From: Rubrivirga marina
GTDB taxonomy: Bacteria > Bacteroidota > Rhodothermia > Rhodothermales > Rubricoccaceae
Assembly: GCF_002283365.1 (NCBI RefSeq)
Contig: NZ_MQWD01000001.1
Location: 2,947,749 to 3,011,748, forward strand
Direction: 5' to 3'
DNA length: 64,000 nt
The position numbers and the translations under genes were made by a program. The notes under the pieces are model-generated. The model saw nothing but the letters and a program-made list of their open reading frames with translations. It was not told the origin of the DNA and ran no database searches. Shown here piece by piece: positions 55,781-64,000 of this stretch (the stretch's first letter is position 1; every line of letters starts with the position of its first letter).

Positions 55781-55910
55781 CCCCAACGAGCGAGGGGCGT
55801 TCAACCGCCGCTGGCCACTGAGCGGTGTGGGCGAGCACGAGGATACGCCGCGGCGCCACCGGGACCGAGGGCGCTCGCTCCAGCTGTCGGCTTGCAACGC
55901 CGGGTTCGGG
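55781..55910 (-). repeat. attC-like cassette site 1
   Basis: A 130-bp site bounded by the cores CCCCAAC (left) and GTTCGGG (right), with inner boxes GCGTTCAACCGCCG and GTCGGCTTGCAACGCC. Read on the minus strand it follows the toxin gene, whose stop is 18 bp away. TATCCTCG (minus) lies at 55838-55845. It is related to sites 6 and 7. Confidence 0.7.
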
Positions 55911-55928: not shown

Positions 55929-56192
55929 CTATCGGTACACGTCTCGCCGGTTCCCCACTTTGACCACCTCGACGACGAGCACGTCGTCGGCGACCGTGTA
56001 GACGATCCGGTATTCGCCCTGCCGGACCCGGTACGCGCCCCGGCCCGTGAGCTTGGTGCAACCGGGCGGACGCGGGTCGTCGGCGAGCGCGCCGATCCGG
56101 TCCACCACGCTCTGGCGGTCCTTCATGCGACCGATGGCTCGGATCTCCTTGGCCGCGCTCCGCTTCACCTCGATCCGGTACCGCCCCGGCAT
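55929..56192 (-). CDS. RelE/ParE-family toxin
   Basis: An 87-residue toxin of the RelE/ParE superfamily (YRIEVKRSAAKEIRAIGRMKDRQSVVDRIGALADDPRPPGCTKLTG…YRVRQGEYRIVYTV…VVEVVKVGNRRDVYR). The RxGxYRIVY core and the C-terminal VGxRRDVY are family hallmarks. Members cleave mRNA on the ribosome or poison gyrase; which applies here is not clear, though the sequence looks more RelE-like. ATG overlaps the antitoxin stop. It forms a gene cassette with the antitoxin between sites 1 and 2. Confidence 0.9.
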   Translation of the reverse strand: MPGRYRIEVKRSAAKEIRAIGRMKDRQSVVDRIGALADDPRPPGCTKLTGRGAYRVRQGEYRIVYTVADDVLVVEVVKVGNRRDVYR

Positions 56193-56428
56193 CAGATGGC
56201 GCCCTCCGCCTTGAGGTCTCGGACGAACGACTCGAACGAGACGGTCGGCTCGTCGGCCCGGTCGCGGAGCGCGGCGAGGTCGTCGGCGTCCTCAGCCAGG
56301 AGCACGCGGACGGCCTCGTTGACCACGTCGGAAACGGACCGGTCGGTCTCGGCCGCCTTGAGGCGGAGCGCCTTATGGAGGGCGGAGTCGAAGTAGACGG
56401 TCGCGCGCTTCGGGCTGGCAGCAGGCAT
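56192..56428 (-). CDS. Ribbon-helix-helix antitoxin
   Basis: A 78-residue antitoxin. The N-terminal half (KRATVYFDSALHKALRLKAAETDRSVSDVVNEAVRVLL) is a ribbon-helix-helix DNA-binding fold, and the C-terminal part (DEPTVSFESFVRDLKAEGAI) should wrap the toxin. It precedes the toxin with an ATGA overlap. An inverted repeat just upstream is a likely autoregulatory operator. Confidence 0.88.
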   Translation of the reverse strand: MPAASPKRATVYFDSALHKALRLKAAETDRSVSDVVNEAVRVLLAEDADDLAALRDRADEPTVSFESFVRDLKAEGAI

Positions 56429-56455: not shown

Positions 56456-56490
56456 AGACGTTCCAGCGTAGCACCGGGTTTCGAGAAGCG

Positions 56491-56621
56491 CGCGAATGAT
56501 TGATTGGCCGCTTAGCCGCGACGGGCGGCGCTGGCGGCAAGAACGAGCGCAAGGATACGCCGACGCCCGAACGAGCTGAGAACGCTTGCGCCCGGCGTCG
56601 GCCTACAGCGGCTGGTTACGC
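56491..56621 (-). repeat. attC-like cassette site 2
   Basis: A 131-bp site. Inner boxes GGCCGCTTAGCCG (left) and CGTCGGCCTACAGCGGC (right) are clear, and the right core is GTTACGC. The left core is weak (CGCGAAT instead of AAC). The stop codon of the next gene (TAA, 56616-56618) lies inside the right core. Confidence 0.75.
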
Positions 56622-56999
56622 CGCGCGATGAGACCAGCGCCACTTCAAGAGCGGCAACGAGAGAGCCGCACCGGCCAGTCCCGTCACCACGTCCCACAGG
56701 TCTGCGGTTTGCCGCGGCATCGCGAGATGGGCCACTTCGGCCAGAGACACGAGGGCACCGGCGAGAACGACCGACGCGACGGGCGGCGTCGCGGCGGCGA
56801 GCGCCTGCCACGCCGCGAGCGTCCCACCAGCGAAGAAGCTGGGGGCCACGCCGAGCGTCCAGTGTCCACGGATGCCCGCTTCGGACGCCCACGAACGGAG
56901 CGGCCCGACCGCCGCGATCCACAGTACGAACGCGGCGACGACGAACGCGAGCAGCCAGCGGTCGGGATGCCGAAGCCTCGCTACAACGTCGTCGAGCAC
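56616..56999 (-). CDS. VanZ-like small membrane protein (cassette gene)
   Basis: A 127-residue protein with about four transmembrane helices (RWLLAFVVAAFVLWIAAVGPL, FFAGGTLAAWQALAAATPP, SVVLAGALVSLAEVAHLAM, VTGLAGAALSLPLL). The SLAEVAHLAMPRQTADLWDVVTGLAG stretch resembles VanZ-type proteins. GTG 56999 was chosen because earlier in-frame codons lie inside the neighbouring attC-like site. The gene ends within site 2. Confidence 0.65.
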   Translation of the reverse strand: MLDDVVARLRHPDRWLLAFVVAAFVLWIAAVGPLRSWASEAGIRGHWTLGVAPSFFAGGTLAAWQALAAATPPVASVVLAGALVSLAEVAHLAMPRQTADLWDVVTGLAGAALSLPLLKWRWSHRAA

Positions 57000-57016
57000 A
57001 GCAGATCGGGAGCGCG

Positions 57017-57144
57017 GTGTAACGAGGGGCCGCTTAGCCGCCGGAGGCGATGGCACGGCGGGTGGACGAGCGAAAGTAGGCGCCTTCGCCCGGACGAGCC
57101 AGGAACGCTGAGGCCCCCGGTCGGCCTACAGCGGCGGGTTGGGC
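57017..57144 (-). repeat. attC-like cassette site 3
   Basis: A 128-bp site with cores GTGTAAC and GTTGGGC; the latter fits the classical GTTRRRY. The left box CCGCTTAGCCGCC pairs with CCGCTGTAGGCCGACC (reverse complement of the right box) with three single-base bulges, all on the same arm. TACTTTCG (minus) is at 57071-57078. Confidence 0.82.
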
Positions 57145-57153
57145 CGCCCGGGC

Positions 57154-57663
57154 TCAGCGCGGGTACACCATCTGGTTCCGCTCTGCATGGACCACGAACA
57201 CCTCGTCTTCGAGTCGGCTCACCCACCGCTCCTCGCGCCCCTCCGGGACCCCGAAGACGACGAGGTCCTGACCCCGGTACACGTTGACGACGTCGAGCCC
57301 GCCTTGGGCCGCGATGAGCGCCCGGACGTGCTCCTCGTCCGCCGCACGCCGGACTACGACCTCGACCCCGTCCCCCCGCCACACCCGCGCCGTGTCGACG
57401 AGCGGGTCGGCGGACAGCGCGGCGAGGTAGTCCTCGGGGGCGCCGGAGCGGACGACGGTCTGGACGAGGTACACCGGGGGGAGCGCGACCTGCTCGACCT
57501 CGATGCTGTGCTCGCGGGCGTACGCCTCAAGAAAGGCCGGCTCGACGTATCGGACCGAGGCAACGACCTCTCCGGGGATGAACGGGTCGTCGGACTCGAA
57601 GGCGTCGCACCCAGCGAGGAGCGCCGGAGCGAGTAGGAGTGCGAGAGCGGGGACGGAGCGCAC
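57154..57663 (-). CDS. Lipoprotein (cassette gene)
   Basis: A 169-residue lipoprotein with lipobox LLAGC (Cys19). The mature part contains two similar alpha/beta units (FLEAYAREHSIEVEQVALPPVYLVQTVVRSG and HVRALIAAQGGLDVVNVYRGQDLVVFGV), which could be a ferredoxin-like repeat. No family was recognised. The start GTG 57663 is 90 bp from the left end of site 4, leaving a long leader, and TACCTTCG in site 4 could serve as its -7 box. Confidence 0.68.
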   Translation of the reverse strand: MRSVPALALLLAPALLAGCDAFESDDPFIPGEVVASVRYVEPAFLEAYAREHSIEVEQVALPPVYLVQTVVRSGAPEDYLAALSADPLVDTARVWRGDGVEVVVRRAADEEHVRALIAAQGGLDVVNVYRGQDLVVFGVPEGREERWVSRLEDEVFVVHAERNQMVYPR

Positions 57664-57746
57664 GGTGATCGGGCAGAGGTGAGCCGCAACGGTAGGTCGG
57701 ACGACGAACCTTGTAAAGTGCCAAGCAGAGCGCCCAACGTGAGGCG

Positions 57747-57874
57747 GCCCAACAGCTGGCCGCTTAGCCGCCGGGGCTGGCGGCGCGGCGGGTGGACGAG
57801 CGAAGGTAGGCGCCGGCGCTCGGACGAGACGGGGACGCTGAAGCCCCCGGTCGGCCTACAGCGGCGGGTTCTGC
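57747..57874 (-). repeat. attC-like cassette site 4
   Basis: A 128-bp site with cores GCCCAAC and GTTCTGC. Inner boxes match site 3 exactly over GGCCGCTTAGCCGCC and GGTCGGCCTACAGCGGCGG. The left terminus GTTGGGCCGCC (minus) is identical to the right terminus of site 3, the other end of the same cassette. Confidence 0.85.
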
Positions 57875-57895
57875 CGCCCGCTTCCGTCGTGTCCT

Positions 57896-58444
57896 TCACT
57901 CGCTCCTGGACAGCTCGAACCGCTGGCGGTAGCAGACCCACCTCTCCTCGTGCTCCCCGTAGCGGACCACCACTTTCCCTCGGCTGAAGAGCTGCTCGCT
58001 GAGGAACGACTCTGGCCCGGTGGGAATGAGGGTGTACGTGACCACGATGTGCCGGAAAGAGGAATCCCCTCCTGGGATGACGGCTCGGGCATCGACTCGA
58101 CCGCCCACCACGCGGTAGTTCCCTCGTGAGACGATCGGGCCGTAGTCGTCCCGGGATGTGAGCGAAGTCCGCATGTCCTCGACGGACCGCGCCACGAAGA
58201 AGTCTCCGTCGGTAGAGAAGGCCATCGCACGGCCGTTTAGGGTTCCCTCCCCGTCCGTAACGCGGGGGTCCGTCCGGCCGCATGACTCGTTCCCACCGAC
58301 CGCGACGTAGACGCCAACGTTCGAGAACGGGAGGGCAGACGCCACGGAGGGTTCGGCGTGGAGCCGCCCGCTCGTACCCCGCCAAGCGCACCCGGCAGTG
58401 ATAGCCGTCAGGAGGACAAAAACAGAGAGCGCGGGGCGGTTCAA
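57896..58444 (-). CDS. Lipoprotein (cassette gene)
   Basis: A 182-residue protein if started at TTG 58444, which begins a lipoprotein signal (NRPALSVFVLLTAITAGC). The mature part is beta-rich (FSNVGVYVAVGGNESCG, VVVRYGEHEERWVCYRQRFEL). There is no ATG in a suitable place, since the frame upstream runs into attC site 5. It ends 22 bp from site 4. No family was recognised. Confidence 0.58.
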   Translation of the reverse strand: MNRPALSVFVLLTAITAGCAWRGTSGRLHAEPSVASALPFSNVGVYVAVGGNESCGRTDPRVTDGEGTLNGRAMAFSTDGDFFVARSVEDMRTSLTSRDDYGPIVSRGNYRVVGGRVDARAVIPGGDSSFRHIVVTYTLIPTGPESFLSEQLFSRGKVVVRYGEHEERWVCYRQRFELSRSE

Positions 58445-58528
58445 CGGACGGGACGCGAGGGACTCGCTCCAGCATAGGTCGGTGCGGGAGCGGCCCTCTG
58501 GTGCAACCGAACTACAGGCGCCGGGGCG

Positions 58529-58654
58529 GCAGAACGATTGGCGATTCAGCCGCCTGAGGCGGCGCGACGGTGATCCGAAGCTAGGAGCGGCGCCGACGCC
58601 AGCAACGGCCGAGAGCGCTGACGCCCCCGGTCGGCCTACAGCGGCGGGTTCTGC
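58529..58654 (-). repeat. attC-like cassette site 5
   Basis: A 126-bp site with cores GCAGAAC and GTTCTGC (perfect complements). The left box is GGCGATTCAGCCGCC; the right box is GGTCGGCCTACAGC. TAGCTTCG (minus, 58576-58583) has a TTG 19 bases upstream (58603-58605), so a full promoter-like pair lies inside the site, pointing at the next cassette. Confidence 0.85.
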
Positions 58655-58661
58655 GTCCCCG

Positions 58662-59255
58662 TCATCGAGGCGGAGTCCGGTGCTCCTCGTCTGCGGCGTA
58701 CTGGGAAACGCCGACCGCCACGAGACCGCCGTCTCTGAACCACAACGCAACTCGCGCGACCCGGGACGTGTCGTCCACCGCCAACTCCGATTCGTAAAGA
58801 CCGTCGCTCCACCCTGCGCCAAGCGGCCAGTCCCGGCAGCGGTACGACTCCGGGAATGCGTTTCGAAACTCAGAGAGCGGGGTGCCTGCCCCGAACCGGC
58901 CCCGGTCGGTCAGGAGCACGTTGTCGCCCAACTCGAACTGCTTCGGGTAGGCGAGCGAGTCGCCGAGCGTGTTGAAGGTGACGGGGCCGCTCGGATGCCG
59001 CGGGTAAGCGATGACGCCGAGGTCGTCAGACCAGGGGAACTCACTGCGGACGGTGTCCGGCGTGCCGAGCGCGGAGCGGACAGCCTCCGGGGACGACCAG
59101 AACGGCAGCGCTCCGATCCGCCAGTCGTCGGTCTGCACGACGGAGTACCAATCGCCCCCGCTCTGAAACGCCTCCTCGCAAGCCGCTCGGCGGTCCGCAT
59201 CGGACGTGGCGCAACCCGCCAGAAGCAGACAGATCAGAGCGGCGGTTTGCTTCAA
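58662..59255 (-). CDS. Lipoprotein (cassette gene)
   Basis: A 197-residue lipoprotein with lipobox LLAGC (Cys15, signal KQTAALICLLLAGC). The mature part has WRIGALPFWSSPEAVRSALGTPDTVRSEFPWSDD, a motif seen in proteins annotated as SmpA/BamE-like or hypothetical, so a BamE-like fold is possible. ATG 59255 is 11 bp from the right-hand boundary (site 6). The stop is eight bp from site 5. Confidence 0.7.
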   Translation of the reverse strand: MKQTAALICLLLAGCATSDADRRAACEEAFQSGGDWYSVVQTDDWRIGALPFWSSPEAVRSALGTPDTVRSEFPWSDDLGVIAYPRHPSGPVTFNTLGDSLAYPKQFELGDNVLLTDRGRFGAGTPLSEFRNAFPESYRCRDWPLGAGWSDGLYESELAVDDTSRVARVALWFRDGGLVAVGVSQYAADEEHRTPPR

Positions 59256-59265
59256 GGCAGGGGAC

Positions 59266-59389
59266 GCAGAACGAGTGGGCGTTCAGCGGCCGGCGGCCGC
59301 TGGCGGGGTGGACGAAGCTACGGGGGGGACGGCGTTGAATCGGTCGATGAAGCTGACGCCGCCGGTCCGCCTGCAACGCCGGGTTCTAC
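59266..59389 (-). repeat. attC-like cassette site 6
   Basis: A 124-bp site with cores GCAGAAC and GTTCTAC. Inner boxes are GTGGGCGTTCAGCGGCCGGCGG and CCGGTCCGCCTGCAACGCC. TAGCTTCG (minus) is at 59313-59320. The left terminus GTTCTGCGTCC (minus) matches the right terminus of site 5. Confidence 0.85.
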
Positions 59390-59395
59390 TGCCAG

Positions 59396-59590
59396 CTACC
59401 CGCAAGCGCTGACGATGAGGCCGAGGCCGAAGAACCCCGCGATCAGAGCCATCATGCTCAACGAGTAGCGTCCCCAGTTGTCGTCGGCCCCGTATCTCCG
59501 AGTGCGGATTTGGCGAACCAAGTGGACCCCTCCCACTGACAGGAGTACGAGGCCGAGTGTGACTTTGAGAGCGACCTCCCAGGCCGGCAT
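59396..59590 (-). CDS. Small two-helix membrane protein (cassette gene)
   Basis: The product has 64 residues with two transmembrane helices (VTLGLVLLSVGGVHLV and MMALIAGFFGLGLIVSACG) joined by a polar loop. ATG 59590 starts nine bases inside the cassette, so little or no leader would remain if the promoter is in site 7. No family was recognised. Confidence 0.6.
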   Translation of the reverse strand: MPAWEVALKVTLGLVLLSVGGVHLVRQIRTRRYGADDNWGRYSLSMMALIAGFFGLGLIVSACG

Positions 59591-59594
59591 GGCA

Positions 59595-59718
59595 GTAGAA
59601 CGAGTGGGCGTTCAGCGGCCGGCGGCCGCTGGCGGTGTGGCCGAAGCTACGCGGCCGATGGCGCCGCGACGGTCGAGGCGACTGATGCCGCCGGTCCGCC
59701 TGCAACGCCGGGTTCTGC
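59595..59718 (-). repeat. attC-like cassette site 7
   Basis: A 124-bp near-duplicate of site 6 (the first 50 bases differ at only a few positions). Cores are GTAGAAC and GTTCTGC. TAGCTTCG (minus) is at 59642-59649. The left terminus GTTCTACTGCCA (minus) matches the right terminus of site 6 over 12 bases. Confidence 0.86.
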
Positions 59719-59726
59719 CGCCATGG

Positions 59727-59942
59727 CTACGGGCCTGTCTCTCTTGACCGGTGCCGGATAAGCTTTACGGCGTCGTACGCTGCAAAGCCTGACCAAGCGA
59801 CGGCTGTGTAAGTGAAGTAGAGACTTCCCGCGTACGCAGCAATCCCCCAGAGTCCAGCAACACTGACGGCGTGGACGGCCAAGTTCCACCAACTGTCCTC
59901 CTCGATTCGGAATCTGGACTTCGCTGTCGGCGGCTCAGTCAT
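59727..59942 (-). CDS. Small two-helix membrane protein (cassette gene)
   Basis: A 71-residue protein (EPPTAKSRFRIEEDSWWNL then two helices, VHAVSVAGLWGIAAYAGSLYFTYTAVAWSGFAAYDAV) with a basic C-terminal tail (KLIRHRSRETGP). ATG 59942 lies 25 bp inside the cassette; an upstream in-frame stretch crosses site 8 and is not used. No family was recognised. Confidence 0.62.
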   Translation of the reverse strand: MTEPPTAKSRFRIEEDSWWNLAVHAVSVAGLWGIAAYAGSLYFTYTAVAWSGFAAYDAVKLIRHRSRETGP

Positions 59943-59962
59943 GTAGATGAGATCACGAGGCG

Positions 59963-60019
59963 GCAGAACAAATTGCGGCTCACCGGCGCGTCCGCGTCCG
60001 GTGCAGACGCGGGTTCTGT
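59963..60019 (-). repeat. attC-like cassette site 8 (short form)
   Basis: Only 57 bp, with cores GCAGAAC and GTTCTGT. Inner boxes TTGCGGCTCACCGGCG and GTCCGGTGCAGACGC pair directly with almost no central region, like the shortest known attC sites. It is the only site with no promoter-like centre. Confidence 0.8.
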
Positions 60020-60031
60020 GGCCGAGGGCAC

Positions 60032-60601
60032 CTACACCACCGGTAGCGGAGGGCCGAGCATCGTCATCCCGTGCGAGGCGAAGAGGGGGGCCATCATCTC
60101 CGGCGACGGAGCGCTCCCCATCTCTGCCAACCCCCCCAAGAACGACTCCATCTGCCCGGCGGGCTGGAAGGCGATGATGAGCCGACCTTCCCCCTCGCTT
60201 ACGTGCGCCCAGACGTGCGGGACCTCTCGCGGAGCGAAGACCGAATCTCCAGGGCCGAGGTCGAACCGCTCCTCGCCGACGTCTACGCGGTACGCCCCCT
60301 CCAACACGTAGAACCACTCGTCCTGTGCGTGGTGGACGTGGCGCGGGGGCCCCCCCTTCGCCTCGTCAGTGTGCTCAATGACGTAGAGGTCGCCCGCGGT
60401 GTCCGAAGGCGGCACCTTCGCGTCGATCCGGAGGCCGCCGAAGACGTGGCGAGGGCGGCCCGTTCGGTCCTGACCGGCACGGACGAGGCTGCCGGCGCGT
60501 CTCCGCTGGACGAGCGGGATCCGAAGCCCGGGCGCGCACGACGCGAGGGGGGCGGCCACCAGTGCCGTGAGCAGGAAGGCTCGGCGTTCGATGAGACGCA
60601 T
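60032..60601 (-). CDS. Exported cupin-domain protein (cassette gene)
   Basis: A 189-residue protein with an N-terminal export signal (RLIERRAFLLTALVAAPLASC) that has a twin-arginine pair and a lipobox-like LASC, then a cupin (about 75-150). The metal-binding motif is RHVHHAQDEWFYVLEGAYRV, and the second box is GPGDSVFAPREVPHVW. Cupins of this type bind small acids or act as dioxygenases; the substrate is unknown. ATG 60601 lies 27 bp from site 9. Confidence 0.75.
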   Translation of the reverse strand: MRLIERRAFLLTALVAAPLASCAPGLRIPLVQRRRAGSLVRAGQDRTGRPRHVFGGLRIDAKVPPSDTAGDLYVIEHTDEAKGGPPRHVHHAQDEWFYVLEGAYRVDVGEERFDLGPGDSVFAPREVPHVWAHVSEGEGRLIIAFQPAGQMESFLGGLAEMGSAPSPEMMAPLFASHGMTMLGPPLPVV

Positions 60602-60628
60602 AGGGAGTACCTCAGGAGTTTGAAGGCC

Positions 60629-60750
60629 GCAGAAGGGGGCCGCTTAGCCGCGACGGGCAGCGCTGCGGTAGGGACGAGCGACAGGATACGCTGACGCATG
60701 GACCAGCCGACCCCGCTCACGCCCGGCGTCGGCCCAGCGGCGGGTTCTGC
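60629..60750 (-). repeat. attC-like cassette site 9
   Basis: A 122-bp site. The left core is GCAGAAG (one base from AAC), the right core GTTCTGC. Inner boxes GGCCGCTTAGCCGCG and CGTCGGCCCAGCGGCGG. TATCCTGT (minus) is at 60681-60688. Confidence 0.78.
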
Positions 60751-60766
60751 GGCCGCGGCAAAGGCC

Positions 60767-61282
60767 TCAGCCCAGGCGCACACTGGCACCGGGCGCCGGG
60801 TCGCCCTTCCCCGCTCGGATCAGGGCCCGACCCACGGCCAGAAGTGCCGCCCCGAGGACCAGGAATCCGATATCCCAGGCGAGGCGGTTCGGGGAGTACT
60901 CATTCACGTGGTGCAGCCCCAAGATCTGGTGGTCGATGACCCCCTCGACCACGTTGAACAGCCCCCAGCCGGCGACCAGCCCCCCCACGAACGTTCGGCC
61001 CGACCAGGGGACGTCGGACCGACGCCCCGCCCCCCAGAGCATCGCGAGCCCCGCGACGGTCAGGAGCCACACGCCGGCGTGGAAGATCCCGTCCCACAGC
61101 ATGTTCGTCTTCGCACTGGCGAGGCCGTCTACGGGGACCTGCGCCGAGAGCATGTTGTGCCACTGCGCGATCTGGTGCAGCACGATCCCGTCGATGAACC
61201 CTCCGAGCCCGGCCCCCATCACGAGCCCGGCGGCGATGAGGGGCCGGTAGTTCGTCCGGTCAGCCCTCAGGGTGGGGTCCAT
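60767..61282 (-). CDS. DUF2243 membrane protein (cassette gene)
   Basis: A 171-residue protein with four transmembrane helices. The signature LVMGAGLGGFIDGIVLHQIAQWHNMLSA and later VVEGVIDHQILGLHHVNE have conserved His residues that could bind metal or haem. DUF2243 proteins often occur near cytochrome-oxidase assembly genes, so a redox or copper role is a possibility only. It follows a small CxxC membrane protein in the same cassette, six bases away. Confidence 0.8.
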   Translation of the reverse strand: MDPTLRADRTNYRPLIAAGLVMGAGLGGFIDGIVLHQIAQWHNMLSAQVPVDGLASAKTNMLWDGIFHAGVWLLTVAGLAMLWGAGRRSDVPWSGRTFVGGLVAGWGLFNVVEGVIDHQILGLHHVNEYSPNRLAWDIGFLVLGAALLAVGRALIRAGKGDPAPGASVRLG

Positions 61283-61288
61283 CGGCCG

Positions 61289-61486
61289 TCACCGGGGAGG
61301 GGGGGAGAGGTACACCGCCACGCCGATGGCAGCGATGACGAGGAGGGGGAGGAGCAGGAGCCCCACGTCCGGCAGGAACGCCTGCGTATAGACGGCCTCT
61401 CGGGCCTCCACGCGGCAGTGCGGACACGCCCCGGCGGCGGGGGCGCTTAGGAGTGCTACGAGGGCCAGGCCAACGACCCGTTTCAT
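61289..61486 (-). CDS. Small CxxC membrane protein (cassette gene)
   Basis: A 65-residue protein with a signal peptide (KRVVGLALVALLSAPAAGA) followed directly by CPHCRVEAREAVY and one transmembrane helix (LLLLPLLVIAAIGVAVYL). The exported CxxC next to a His-rich DUF2243 protein suggests a metal or thiol role. It sits upstream of the DUF2243 gene in one cassette. ATG 61486 starts the signal sequence; an in-frame stretch upstream crosses towards site 10. Confidence 0.65.
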   Translation of the reverse strand: MKRVVGLALVALLSAPAAGACPHCRVEAREAVYTQAFLPDVGLLLLPLLVIAAIGVAVYLSPPPR

Positions 61487-61545
61487 CGCGAGAGGCGTGC
61501 GGGGAGAGCGGCCGTTTGACCCTCGGCGCTCCCGTAGGTTCGGCG

Positions 61546-61670
61546 GCAGAACGATTTGCGATTCAGCCGCCGAGAGGTGAGGGCGCGGCGGCGGGACGAG
61601 GCTATGACAGGAGCGCCGTTCGGACGAGTCCGGAACGCGGACCCTCTCGGTCTGCAAGCGCGGGTTCTAC
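61546..61670 (-). repeat. attC-like cassette site 10
   Basis: A 125-bp site with cores GCAGAAC and GTTCTAC. The left part GATTTGCGATTCAGCCGCC matches site 5, and the right part GGTCTGCAAGCGCGG is nearer to sites 6-7, so it looks like a hybrid. TAGCCTCG (minus) is at 61597-61604. Confidence 0.82.
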
Positions 61671-61702
61671 CATACGGTGGGATATTCCGGTATGAGCGTG
61701 GC

Positions 61703-62092
61703 CTACAGCGAACCGGCCCCTACAGCCCGACGGAACGTGAGGTCATAGGCCCACGTGCCCCTCTCGTCTTCGCGCTCGCCCTCACAGCGGAGTCGGTCGC
61801 TCCCACGGACTCGCTCGTCCTCGCAACTGAGCAGGCCCGTCAGCGGGGGGCGGTACACAGAGTCGGCGTAGAGCGGGTAAACCCAGCGGAAGCCCGCTGC
61901 CGGTACAGGCGCGGCCTCTCCCGGAAGTGATTCAGGGCGACTGTCGAGCCAACACCTGACCCCCTCGCAGTAGAGGAACGGGTCATGAACTGACGCACTT
62001 CCCGCGAGCGCCTCGATCTCGGACCGCTCCGGTCCCGACGGCACGCATCCAGCGGCGCTCGCGGCGAGCAGTATCAGCGCGATAGAACGCAA
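61703..62092 (-). CDS. Lipoprotein (cassette gene)
   Basis: A 129-residue protein if started at TTG 62092, giving a lipoprotein signal (RSIALILLAASAAGC). The mature part has four Cys (FLYCEGVRCW, LLSCEDERVRGSDRLRCEG), likely two disulfides. The start lies 12 bp from site 11, and no better start codon exists within the cassette. No family was recognised. Confidence 0.58.
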   Translation of the reverse strand: MRSIALILLAASAAGCVPSGPERSEIEALAGSASVHDPFLYCEGVRCWLDSRPESLPGEAAPVPAAGFRWVYPLYADSVYRPPLTGLLSCEDERVRGSDRLRCEGEREDERGTWAYDLTFRRAVGAGSL

Positions 62093-62103
62093 GGGCGAGT
62101 GCG

Positions 62104-62230
62104 GTAGAACGAGTGGCCGCTTAGCCGCGACGGGTGGCGCTGGCGGCAGGAACGCTCGACAGGATACGCCGACGCTCTGACGAGCCAAGAACGCTCGCGC
62201 CCGGCGTAGGCCTACAGCGGCGAGTTCTGC
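62104..62230 (-). repeat. attC-like cassette site 11
   Basis: A 127-bp site with cores GTAGAAC and GTTCTGC. Inner boxes GTGGCCGCTTAGCCGCG and CGTAGGCCTACAGCGGCG. TATCCTGT (minus, 62159-62166) has TTG 19 bases upstream (62186-62188). The last codons and the TAG stop of the next gene (62212) lie inside the site. Confidence 0.84.
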
Positions 62231-62796
62231 CGCCCCGCCCCCGACGGCCTGTAGGTCAGCGCCGTGACGCCCGTGTCGAACGACCGAGCCTCGACGAGGT
62301 CGAGCGACGCCCGCTCGCTCTCGAACAGCCGCTTCCCCTGCCCCAGCACGACGGGGTACACGAGGAGCCGGTACTCGTCGACCAGGCCCGCCCGGACGAG
62401 CGAGCGGACGAGCGTCGCGCTCCCGAACACGAGGAGGTCCCCGCCCGCCCCACCCTTCAGCGACCGGACGGCGGCCTTGGGGTCGTCCCCCAGGTGGCGG
62501 CCGTTCCAGCCCCTCCGGTCCACCTCGCCCGGACCGAGCGTCGTCGTAGCGACGTGCTTCGGGAGCGCGTTGATCCGCTCCGCGTACCCGTCCTCGCTCG
62601 TCCTCGACGCCCACGCCTCGGCGAAAGCCTCGAACGTGACTCGGCCGAGGACGAGGGCGTCGGCGGCGAACAGCTCGTCCCGCTTGTAGGCGGCGAGCTC
62701 GTCCGACCAGTAGGGCATCGTCCACATCGGGTCCTCCATGACCCCGTCGAGCGAGAGGTACTCGGAGACGACGAGACGGCGGGGGCCGTTGTCCAT
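62212..62796 (-). CDS. RibD-C/dihydrofolate reductase-family protein (cassette gene)
   Basis: A 194-residue NADPH-dependent reductase-like protein of the YyaP/YwjB group. It begins RRLVVSEYLSLDGVMEDP and has ADALVLGRVTFEAFAEAW, GGAGGDLLVFGSATLVRSLVRAGLVDEYRLLVYPVVLGQGKRLF and a closing VTALTYRP. These proteins resemble the RibD C-terminal domain and DHFR, but their substrates are mostly unknown. The C-terminus (GAGRQNSPL) is encoded by the attC-like site, suggesting the original gene ended slightly earlier. Confidence 0.82.
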   Translation of the reverse strand: MDNGPRRLVVSEYLSLDGVMEDPMWTMPYWSDELAAYKRDELFAADALVLGRVTFEAFAEAWASRTSEDGYAERINALPKHVATTTLGPGEVDRRGWNGRHLGDDPKAAVRSLKGGAGGDLLVFGSATLVRSLVRAGLVDEYRLLVYPVVLGQGKRLFESERASLDLVEARSFDTGVTALTYRPSGAGRQNSPL

Positions 62797-62878
62797 TGAC
62801 GAGAAGGGGGGTGAGAAGGGGCCAGAGATTAGAGAGGCCCTACGACATCGGAACGTCGCAGGGCTACGTACTCAGGCG

Positions 62879-63002
62879 GCAGAACAGTTTGCGGCTCACC
62901 CGCGAAACGCGGTAGGCCTCTCGAATGAGGCAAGTTCAGTGACAGCGCTGGGACGAGGCGAGACGGTCGAGCGTTTCGTCGGCGTGCAGCCTCGAGTCAT
63001 GC
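62879..63002 (-). repeat. attC-like cassette site 12
   Basis: A 124-bp site with left core GCAGAAC and a degenerate right core GTCATGC. Inner boxes TTGCGGCTCACCCGCG and GTCGGCGTGCAGCC match short site 8, but the centre is longer and lacks a clear promoter-like box. It is the last site before the right edge. Confidence 0.7.
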
Positions 63003-63016
63003 CGCACCTCCCGGGC

Positions 63017-64000
63017 TCACTCCTTCCGAGCAGCACGTTCGACGTCCGCCAGCAGCTCGTCCAGCGCCGCGCGGTCGAAGAGCCGCCCCCGCGTCACCAC
63101 CGCCTCGATCCGCTGCGCGTTCGCGATGTCCTCCAGGGGGTCCGCCGACAACAGCACGAGGTCGGCCACCTTGCCCACGTCCACCGTGCCCTGGGTGTCC
63201 ACGGCGTCGAGGTAGCGCGCCGGCTCGAGGGTCGCCGTGCGGAGCGCCTCGGCCTCCGTCAGCCCGATCGCCACGAGCACTACCAACTCGTCGTGGAGAC
63301 CGAAGCCCGCGAAGACGCCCGTGGACCCGGCGTCGGACCCGGCCAGCAGCGGGACCCCGGCCCGGTGCTGCGCCAGGGTGACCGCGCGCTCGAAGCGCGC
63401 GACCTCCGACGCGCGGGGGTCGTCCTGCAAGGAATCGAACTCGTCCTCGTCGTCGACCCAATACTCCCGCTCCTCCCGGGGCAGGTACCGCAGCCGGGGA
63501 TCGTTCCGCCAGTCGAACCCGATCTCACCCGGCAACCTCTCGCCGGCAAACAGGGTCGGGGTGATCCACGTCCCGTTCCTCACCAGCGTCTCGTAGACCC
63601 CGGCGCACTTGGCCGCGTCGTGGCTCTCGATCATCTCCAGCCAGACGGGCATGATCTCCGGCTCGTCCGACTCCAGCTCCGCGCGGAGGCGGCGGCGGAC
63701 CTCGTCCTCCCGCGCCGAGCACTCCTCGGCCACGTTCCCCCAGGCGGCGTGCTCGATGCTCCGCTGGCCGAGCTCGGAGGCCTCGGAGGCCCGGACCCCC
63801 TCCGGGACGTGCCCGGCGAACGGGAGCCCGATCCGGTTCGCCTCGTCGGCGAAGGCGAGGTAGGCGTCGCGGGGGATGAAGTTGTAGACCTTGGCGAGGT
63901 CCACGCCCCGCGCCTTGAGGAGGCGGGCGTGCTCGCGGGCGTGCTCGGGGGTGCCCGGCTGGAACGGGGTGGACCCCTCGTCACCCGGGCCGTCGAGTTG
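63017..64000 (-). CDS. Amidohydrolase-family protein (5' end outside window)
   Basis: At least 328 residues of a metal-dependent amidohydrolase; the frame is open to the right edge. It has AGHVPEGVRASEASELGQRSIEHAAWGN (metal-binding His), LLAGSDAGSTGVFAGFGLHDELVVLV (metal Asp) and the standard end TATLEPARYLDAVDTQGTVDVGKVADLVLLSADPLEDI. The group includes imidazolonepropionase- and prolidase-like hydrolases; the substrate is unknown. It ends 15 bp from attC-like site 12, so it is either a large cassette or the first non-cassette gene. Confidence 0.85.
   Translation of the reverse strand, partial: QLDGPGDEGSTPFQPGTPEHAREHARLLKARGVDLAKVYNFIPRDAYLAFADEANRIGLPFAGHVPEGVRASEASELGQRSIEHAAWGNVAEECSAREDEVRRRLRAELESDEPEIMPVWLEMIESHDAAKCAGVYETLVRNGTWITPTLFAGERLPGEIGFDWRNDPRLRYLPREEREYWVDDEDEFDSLQDDPRASEVARFERAVTLAQHRAGVPLLAGSDAGSTGVFAGFGLHDELVVLVAIGLTEAEALRTATLEPARYLDAVDTQGTVDVGKVADLVLLSADPLEDIANAQRIEAVVTRGRLFDRAALDELLADVERAARKE

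Follow-up and report, generated by a model that had tools for sequence, protein, structure and literature searches.

Integrases, attC sites and cassettes

The region at the right of the window (the whole 64,000-nucleotide stretch of Rubrivirga marina DNA that was analysed) belongs to a chromosomal integron, of which it forms the distal part. In a profile search of the genome two integron integrases exceeded the TIGR02249 cut-off (C1:3023011 and C1:223689; 380 and 434 bits against 265). The match at C1:3023011 starts 11.3 kb past the window end on a 4.7-Mb contig, placing the integrase gene outside the window, about 12-13 kb rightward of the stretch cited in the original prediction. The two integrases are 58% identical to each other and 46-48% identical to IntI1, and the catalytic residues R136, K161, H273, R276, H299 and Y308 are invariant in the alignment with IntI1; with these residues intact, the integrase is probably active. 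A class 1 (mobile) integron was considered and rejected, given the identity to IntI1 and the location on the 4.7-Mb contig.

Array A extends from about window position 55803 to its putative attI side at 75066 (window-equivalent, outside the window), and array B, a second integron on the same chromosome, covers C1:213053-223420. They hold 21 and 13 cassettes, with 31 distinct over both. The first cassette boundaries, at window-equivalent 75066 and C1:223420, are separated from the intI matches by about 200-270 bp and agree with the R'' of the first cassette, marking what is, from the sequence, a putative attI side. Cassette genes lie on the minus strand and intI on the plus strand, the usual divergent layout. 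An integrase of the intI subfamily is present, as are mobile cassettes and multiple attC sites whose R and L boxes are inverted. The sites are assigned to integron attC because of the integrases above the cut-off, the R''-L''-L'-R' architecture and the recurrence of cassettes with G|TT junctions. In a whole-genome search the right half of the attC core, which is conserved, proved essentially confined to the two arrays, and an Rfam scan of the region gave nothing relevant.

Sites and cassette genes in the window are listed in Table 1. The site at 59967-60015 measures 49 bp (AAC to GTT inclusive), compared with about 115-120 bp elsewhere, and the ends of its cassette still nearly match. The remaining cassette ORFs scanned had no match beyond the ParE/RHH, cupin, DUF2243, RibD_C and amidohydrolase products. 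A neighbouring ORF has a T9SS-like C-terminal sequence, which may point to a host on the Rhodothermota/Bacteroidota side.

Table 1. attC sites and cassette genes in the window, with the R'' end of each site and the 5' end of the same cassette.
Feature	Position	Strand	R''	Own 5' end	Remarks
degenerate distal attC	55803-55906	-	GTTCGGGCGCTT at 55904	ATTCGCGCGCTT, decayed (reverse complement of 56486-56497)	pattern match, read by eye; ends agree at 10/12
ParE-like toxin and RHH antitoxin, cassette genes	55929-56428	-			Pfam PF05016, PF20605
attC	56495-56617	-	GTTACGCCGCG	GTTACACCGCG at 57023	
attC	57021-57140	-	GTTGGGCCGCC at 57138	57753	cassette also in second array
cassette ORF, 169 aa	57154-57663	-			without family match
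attC	57751-57870	-	GTTCTGCCGCCC	58535	second-array copy 100% identical
attC	58533-58650	-	GTTCTGCGTCC at 58648	59272	
attC	59270-59385	-	GTTCTACTGCCA at 59383	59601	
attC	59599-59714	-	GTTCTGCCGCC at 59712	59969	
short attC, 49 bp	59967-60015	-	GTTCTGTGGCC	CTTCTGCGGCC	
cupin domain protein, cassette ORF	60032-60601	-			Pfam PF07883
attC, damaged R'	60633-60746	-	GTTCTGCGGCC	GTTCTGCCGCC at 61552	
DUF2243 membrane protein, cassette ORF	60767-61282	-			Pfam PF10002
attC	61550-61666	-	GTTCTACCATA	GTTCTACCGCA at 62110	
attC	62108-62226	-	GTTCTGCCGCC at 62224	62885	
RibD_C / DHFR-like cassette ORF	62212-62796	-			Pfam PF01872
attC, degenerate R''	62883-62998	-	GTCATGCCGCAC	GTTCTGCCGCAC at 64537	5' end past window
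amidohydrolase ORF (frame as listed)	63017-63904	-			Pfam PF01979; cassette crosses window end

Agreement between the two ends of a cassette

The R'' box was read as GTT... on the plus strand and the cassette's own 5' end as the reverse complement of ...AAC. The terminal matches quoted in the original prediction (the GTTGGGCCGCC, GTTCTGCGTCC, GTTCTACTGCCA and GTTCTGCCGCC pairs) are all present where they had been placed. To these can be added 57868/58535, with 12 exact positions, and the imperfect cassettes 56615/57023, 60013/60635, 60744/61552 and 61664/62110. Over the 31 cassettes of both arrays, agreement at positions 1 to 12 was 0.97, 1.00, 0.97, 0.97, 1.00, 0.87, 0.94, 0.97, 0.97, 0.90, 0.94 and 0.71, and fell to chance at positions 13-15 (0.23, 0.16 and 0.16). 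Between cassettes, agreement at positions 4-11 was 0.31-0.85; position 12 agreed in 71% within cassettes versus 36% between them, and positions 12-15 summed were at the permutation level. The match is therefore limited to 11-12 nt, giving an R stem of that length instead of the textbook 7. Xer-type sites, which belong to the tyrosine recombinase family, have 11-bp arms, and by analogy the limit observed here may lie close to theirs.

The comparison of within-cassette with between-cassette identity was made by permuting the pairings. At positions 4-11 the two arrays together gave 234/248 agreements against 152.6 ± 6.3 for permuted pairs, with 0 of 100,000 permutations reaching 234 (31 cassettes), and the window by itself gave 75/80 against 56.2 ± 3.2, with 3 of 100,000 reaching 75 (10 cassettes). 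Cassettes thus agree with themselves far above the permuted level, where equal or better matches between random pairs had been named as the outcome that would count against the idea. The termini could instead be a single shared repeat, a common R box making any two ends match; GTT and arm positions 7, 9 and 10 are indeed strongly biased, and three cassettes in the window share the 11-mer GTTCTGCCGCC, so that termini are not unique to a cassette. The permutation allows for this sharing, and positions 4-7 and 8-11, each significant by itself, separately beat the permuted pairings (0/100,000), which refutes the shared repeat and leaves it practically no probability. The earlier argument that termini differing between cassettes and agreeing within them cannot be a simple shared repeat was thus borne out. 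We put at about 0.93 the probability of the overall reading, a chromosomal integron array whose cassettes pair their own two arms in the excised circle. Counted against it were R boxes such as GTTCTGC, GTTACGC and others, which depart from GTTRRRY, the one or two mismatches of some cassettes, two or three decayed ends and, among the other integrons surveyed below, arrays with weak matching beyond position 7 (L068, L073).

Inserted DNA interrupts four attC sites beside the R'' end, in three cases an IS110/IS1111-type element and in one a 390-bp element. At all four, the far-side R'' beyond the insertion agreed with the predicted 5' end (11, 12, 12 and 14 exact positions), where about 0.004 12-mers with at most one mismatch are expected by chance in such a stretch. 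The arm match thus locates cassette ends where an attC is damaged or split, and did so four times here.

The IS110/IS1111-type elements (window-equivalent 73362-74780 in L009, C1:214350-215770 and C1:218073-219436) share one insertion point in attC, after GCGGG and before GTT, and carry within attC a DEDD transposase of IS110 type (PF01548/PF02371). The first two copies, one per array, are 99.7% identical, indicating recent movement of the element between attC sites or arrays. The 390-bp element (L009:5079-5470, window-equivalent about 69080-69473) has the identical insertion point and no transposase gene. Subterminal inverted repeats were seen by eye in the inserted elements, those of the 390-bp element being similar to those of the IS, and an Rfam scan of the inserted elements gave no relevant match. 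The 390-bp element is possibly a non-autonomous, mostly non-coding element that targets attC.

Arrayed sites, circles and the origin of the arms

Arms that face each other in the array come from neighbouring cassettes, and they agreed at the permutation level (78/128 against 78.6 permuted at positions 4-7; 85/128 against 78.5 at positions 8-11, p about 0.06). Arrayed neighbours in the Gemmatirosa array described below were at the permutation level too. Since the arrayed R' is contributed by the neighbouring cassette, the match of a cassette to its own end exists only in the circular form. This part of the original prediction, that R'' must pair with the R' formed by the same cassette as a circle, therefore holds; the "must" was too strong, several cassettes having one or two mismatches.

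When the neighbour's arm was replaced by the cassette's own, as in the circle, the predicted single-stranded DNA fold was lower by 5.5 kcal/mol on average and better in 27 of 28 sites (model energies; Wilcoxon p = 7e-6). In every scorable site, L-box pairing put the extrahelical bases on the plus strand's L'' arm, indicating that the bottom strand, the recombinogenic one, is the plus strand and that the right-hand GTT is R''. On the bottom strand, all scored sites of arrays A and B have C as the extrahelical base of the L'' box, and so do L051 and L052 of the same family; this base is a conserved G in the studied proteobacterial attC and mostly G or A in other arrays of the wider phylum. Arm wobble was also tried as an indicator of the folded strand. 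Bottom-strand G.T exceeded A.C (23:6 in a first count, p = 0.001; 25:9 finally), but positions 13-20, outside the arms, were similarly biased (216:105), and the test was dropped since the effect is inseparable from base composition.

Imperfect inverted repeats can be perfected by template switching, and arms might have been corrected in this way at the attC hairpin during replication of the array. The two arrayed arms of a site, which come from different cassettes, nevertheless match at the permutation level, and such correction could act in the circle only, making it very improbable as a source of the agreement. In the mechanism that we propose, cassettes, read on the minus strand, would integrate beside the integrase gene, each built as TT plus a 9-10 nt arm, the gene, the complementary arm plus AA, and the attC core. 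The R' half of an arrayed attC would be supplied by the neighbour, leaving the arms mismatched, and in the excised circle the cassette's own two arms would face each other across the core. The bottom (plus) strand of the circle would then fold into a hairpin with an R stem of 11-12 bp, and the integrase is predicted to recognise this folded strand and insert the circle at attI. Selection for circle folding and integrase binding probably keeps the arms matched. The permutation test points, in an unstudied lineage, to an integron hairpin built for the excised circle, not for the array.

The arrays have two cassettes in common, and a further one is present twice within the second array. Their R'-side neighbours are always different and R'-side identity ends at GTT, which fixes the mobile unit and its G|TT boundary independently of the terminal match. 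Whole cassettes are mobile, and the shared cassettes, beside differing integrases, show that they pass between the two integrons of one chromosome. The attC core at 58533-58650 is 100% identical to that at C1:213835-213952 and is attached to a different gene; its R'' is GTTCTGCGTCC in one case and GTTCTGCGGCC in the other, each equal to the 5' end of its own gene. In the host family, cores at least 90% similar on different genes had R'' arms agreeing at 4.57/8, compared with about 4.2 when the cores were unrelated (14 non-independent pairs), and 85 such pairs from the wider phylum gave 3.47/8 versus 2.86-3.3 for cores less than 70% similar. Between near-identical cores, identity is lost equally sharply at R'' and at R', being at background from the first variable base that follows GTT; the L'' box constraint also keeps the core edge similar, making the sharpness at R'' weaker evidence than the missing arm similarity. 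Arms seem to move together with the gene body and not to stay with the attC core, and the separation of arms from cores may have come about by core exchange at R'', by gene conversion among cores or at cassette birth, offering a concrete angle on cassette assembly.

Matched arms might instead arise as gene body and attC core are joined (genesis or core exchange) and not be kept by selection for folding. R'' arms that follow the gene body, and one identical core carrying two bodies with their own matched arms, fit such an origin. A birth event alone would permit the arms to drift, and none of the whole-cassette copies is old enough to reveal it; we consider this explanation unlikely and prefer maintenance through folding of the circle. 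We also suggest, tentatively and with more doubt than confidence, that a cassette is made up of two modules with separate inheritance: the gene body inside its matched 11-nt inverted repeat, and an attC core that is exchangeable, with breakpoints at GTT on both sides (R'' and R'). If so, matched arms would make every core usable by every body, a point relevant to how attC sites are gained by new cassettes.

Comparison with other integrons

Integrons from other organisms were searched with a finder that used AAC, GTT and L boxes only and ignored the arms. The array on a Gemmatirosa megaplasmid (Gemmatimonadota; 34 cassettes) agreed at 97% or more through position 9, at 74% at position 11 and at 3% at position 12, and gammaproteobacterial, acidobacterial and planctomycete arrays, with few cassettes each, behaved similarly. 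Arrays L068 and L073 showed little matching beyond position 7. In the wider phylum (14 arrays, 111 cassettes), 79 cassettes matched at positions 4-8, and these agreed in 92, 86, 78 and 49% at positions 9, 10, 11 and 12, with values close to background further on. Self-pairing has been described as reaching 9-11 nt in most gene cassettes (Bouvier et al. 2009; PMC2727003). Class 1 resistance cassettes agreed over 8 to 13 nt. The 9-11 nt statement reportedly originates with Rowe-Magnus 2003 and Sundstrom 1991. Given the published account, the class 1 cassettes and the other arrays, self-matching ends are already known in kind, and they are here confirmed in a lineage absent from one attC survey.

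The inserted elements resemble the IS1111-attC insertion sequences ISKpn4 and ISPst6 in their DEDD transposase and in insertion at one end of attC; they differ in the host lineage and in the additional presence of the 390-bp copy lacking a transposase. ISKpn4 and ISPst6 are said to have been described by Tetu & Holmes in 2008 and Post & Hall in 2009. Class 1 cassettes (aacA4, blaVIM-2, blaGES, aadA1) are alike in the agreement of their own 5' end with R'' over about 8-13 nt, whereas the array described here is chromosomal, its attC are GC-rich, its integrase is about 46-48% identical to IntI1, and no resistance genes were recognised among the cassettes scanned. Sedentary chromosomal integrons (superintegrons) likewise have more than 20 single-gene cassettes arrayed beside a divergently transcribed intI, R''-L''-L'-R' attC whose L'' arm carries the extrahelical bases, and whole cassettes mobile between arrays. 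In contrast to these, most R boxes here read GTTCTRC/GTTATRC in place of GTTRRRY, the bottom strand has C and not G as its conserved extrahelical base, and matching has been measured to 11-12 nt.
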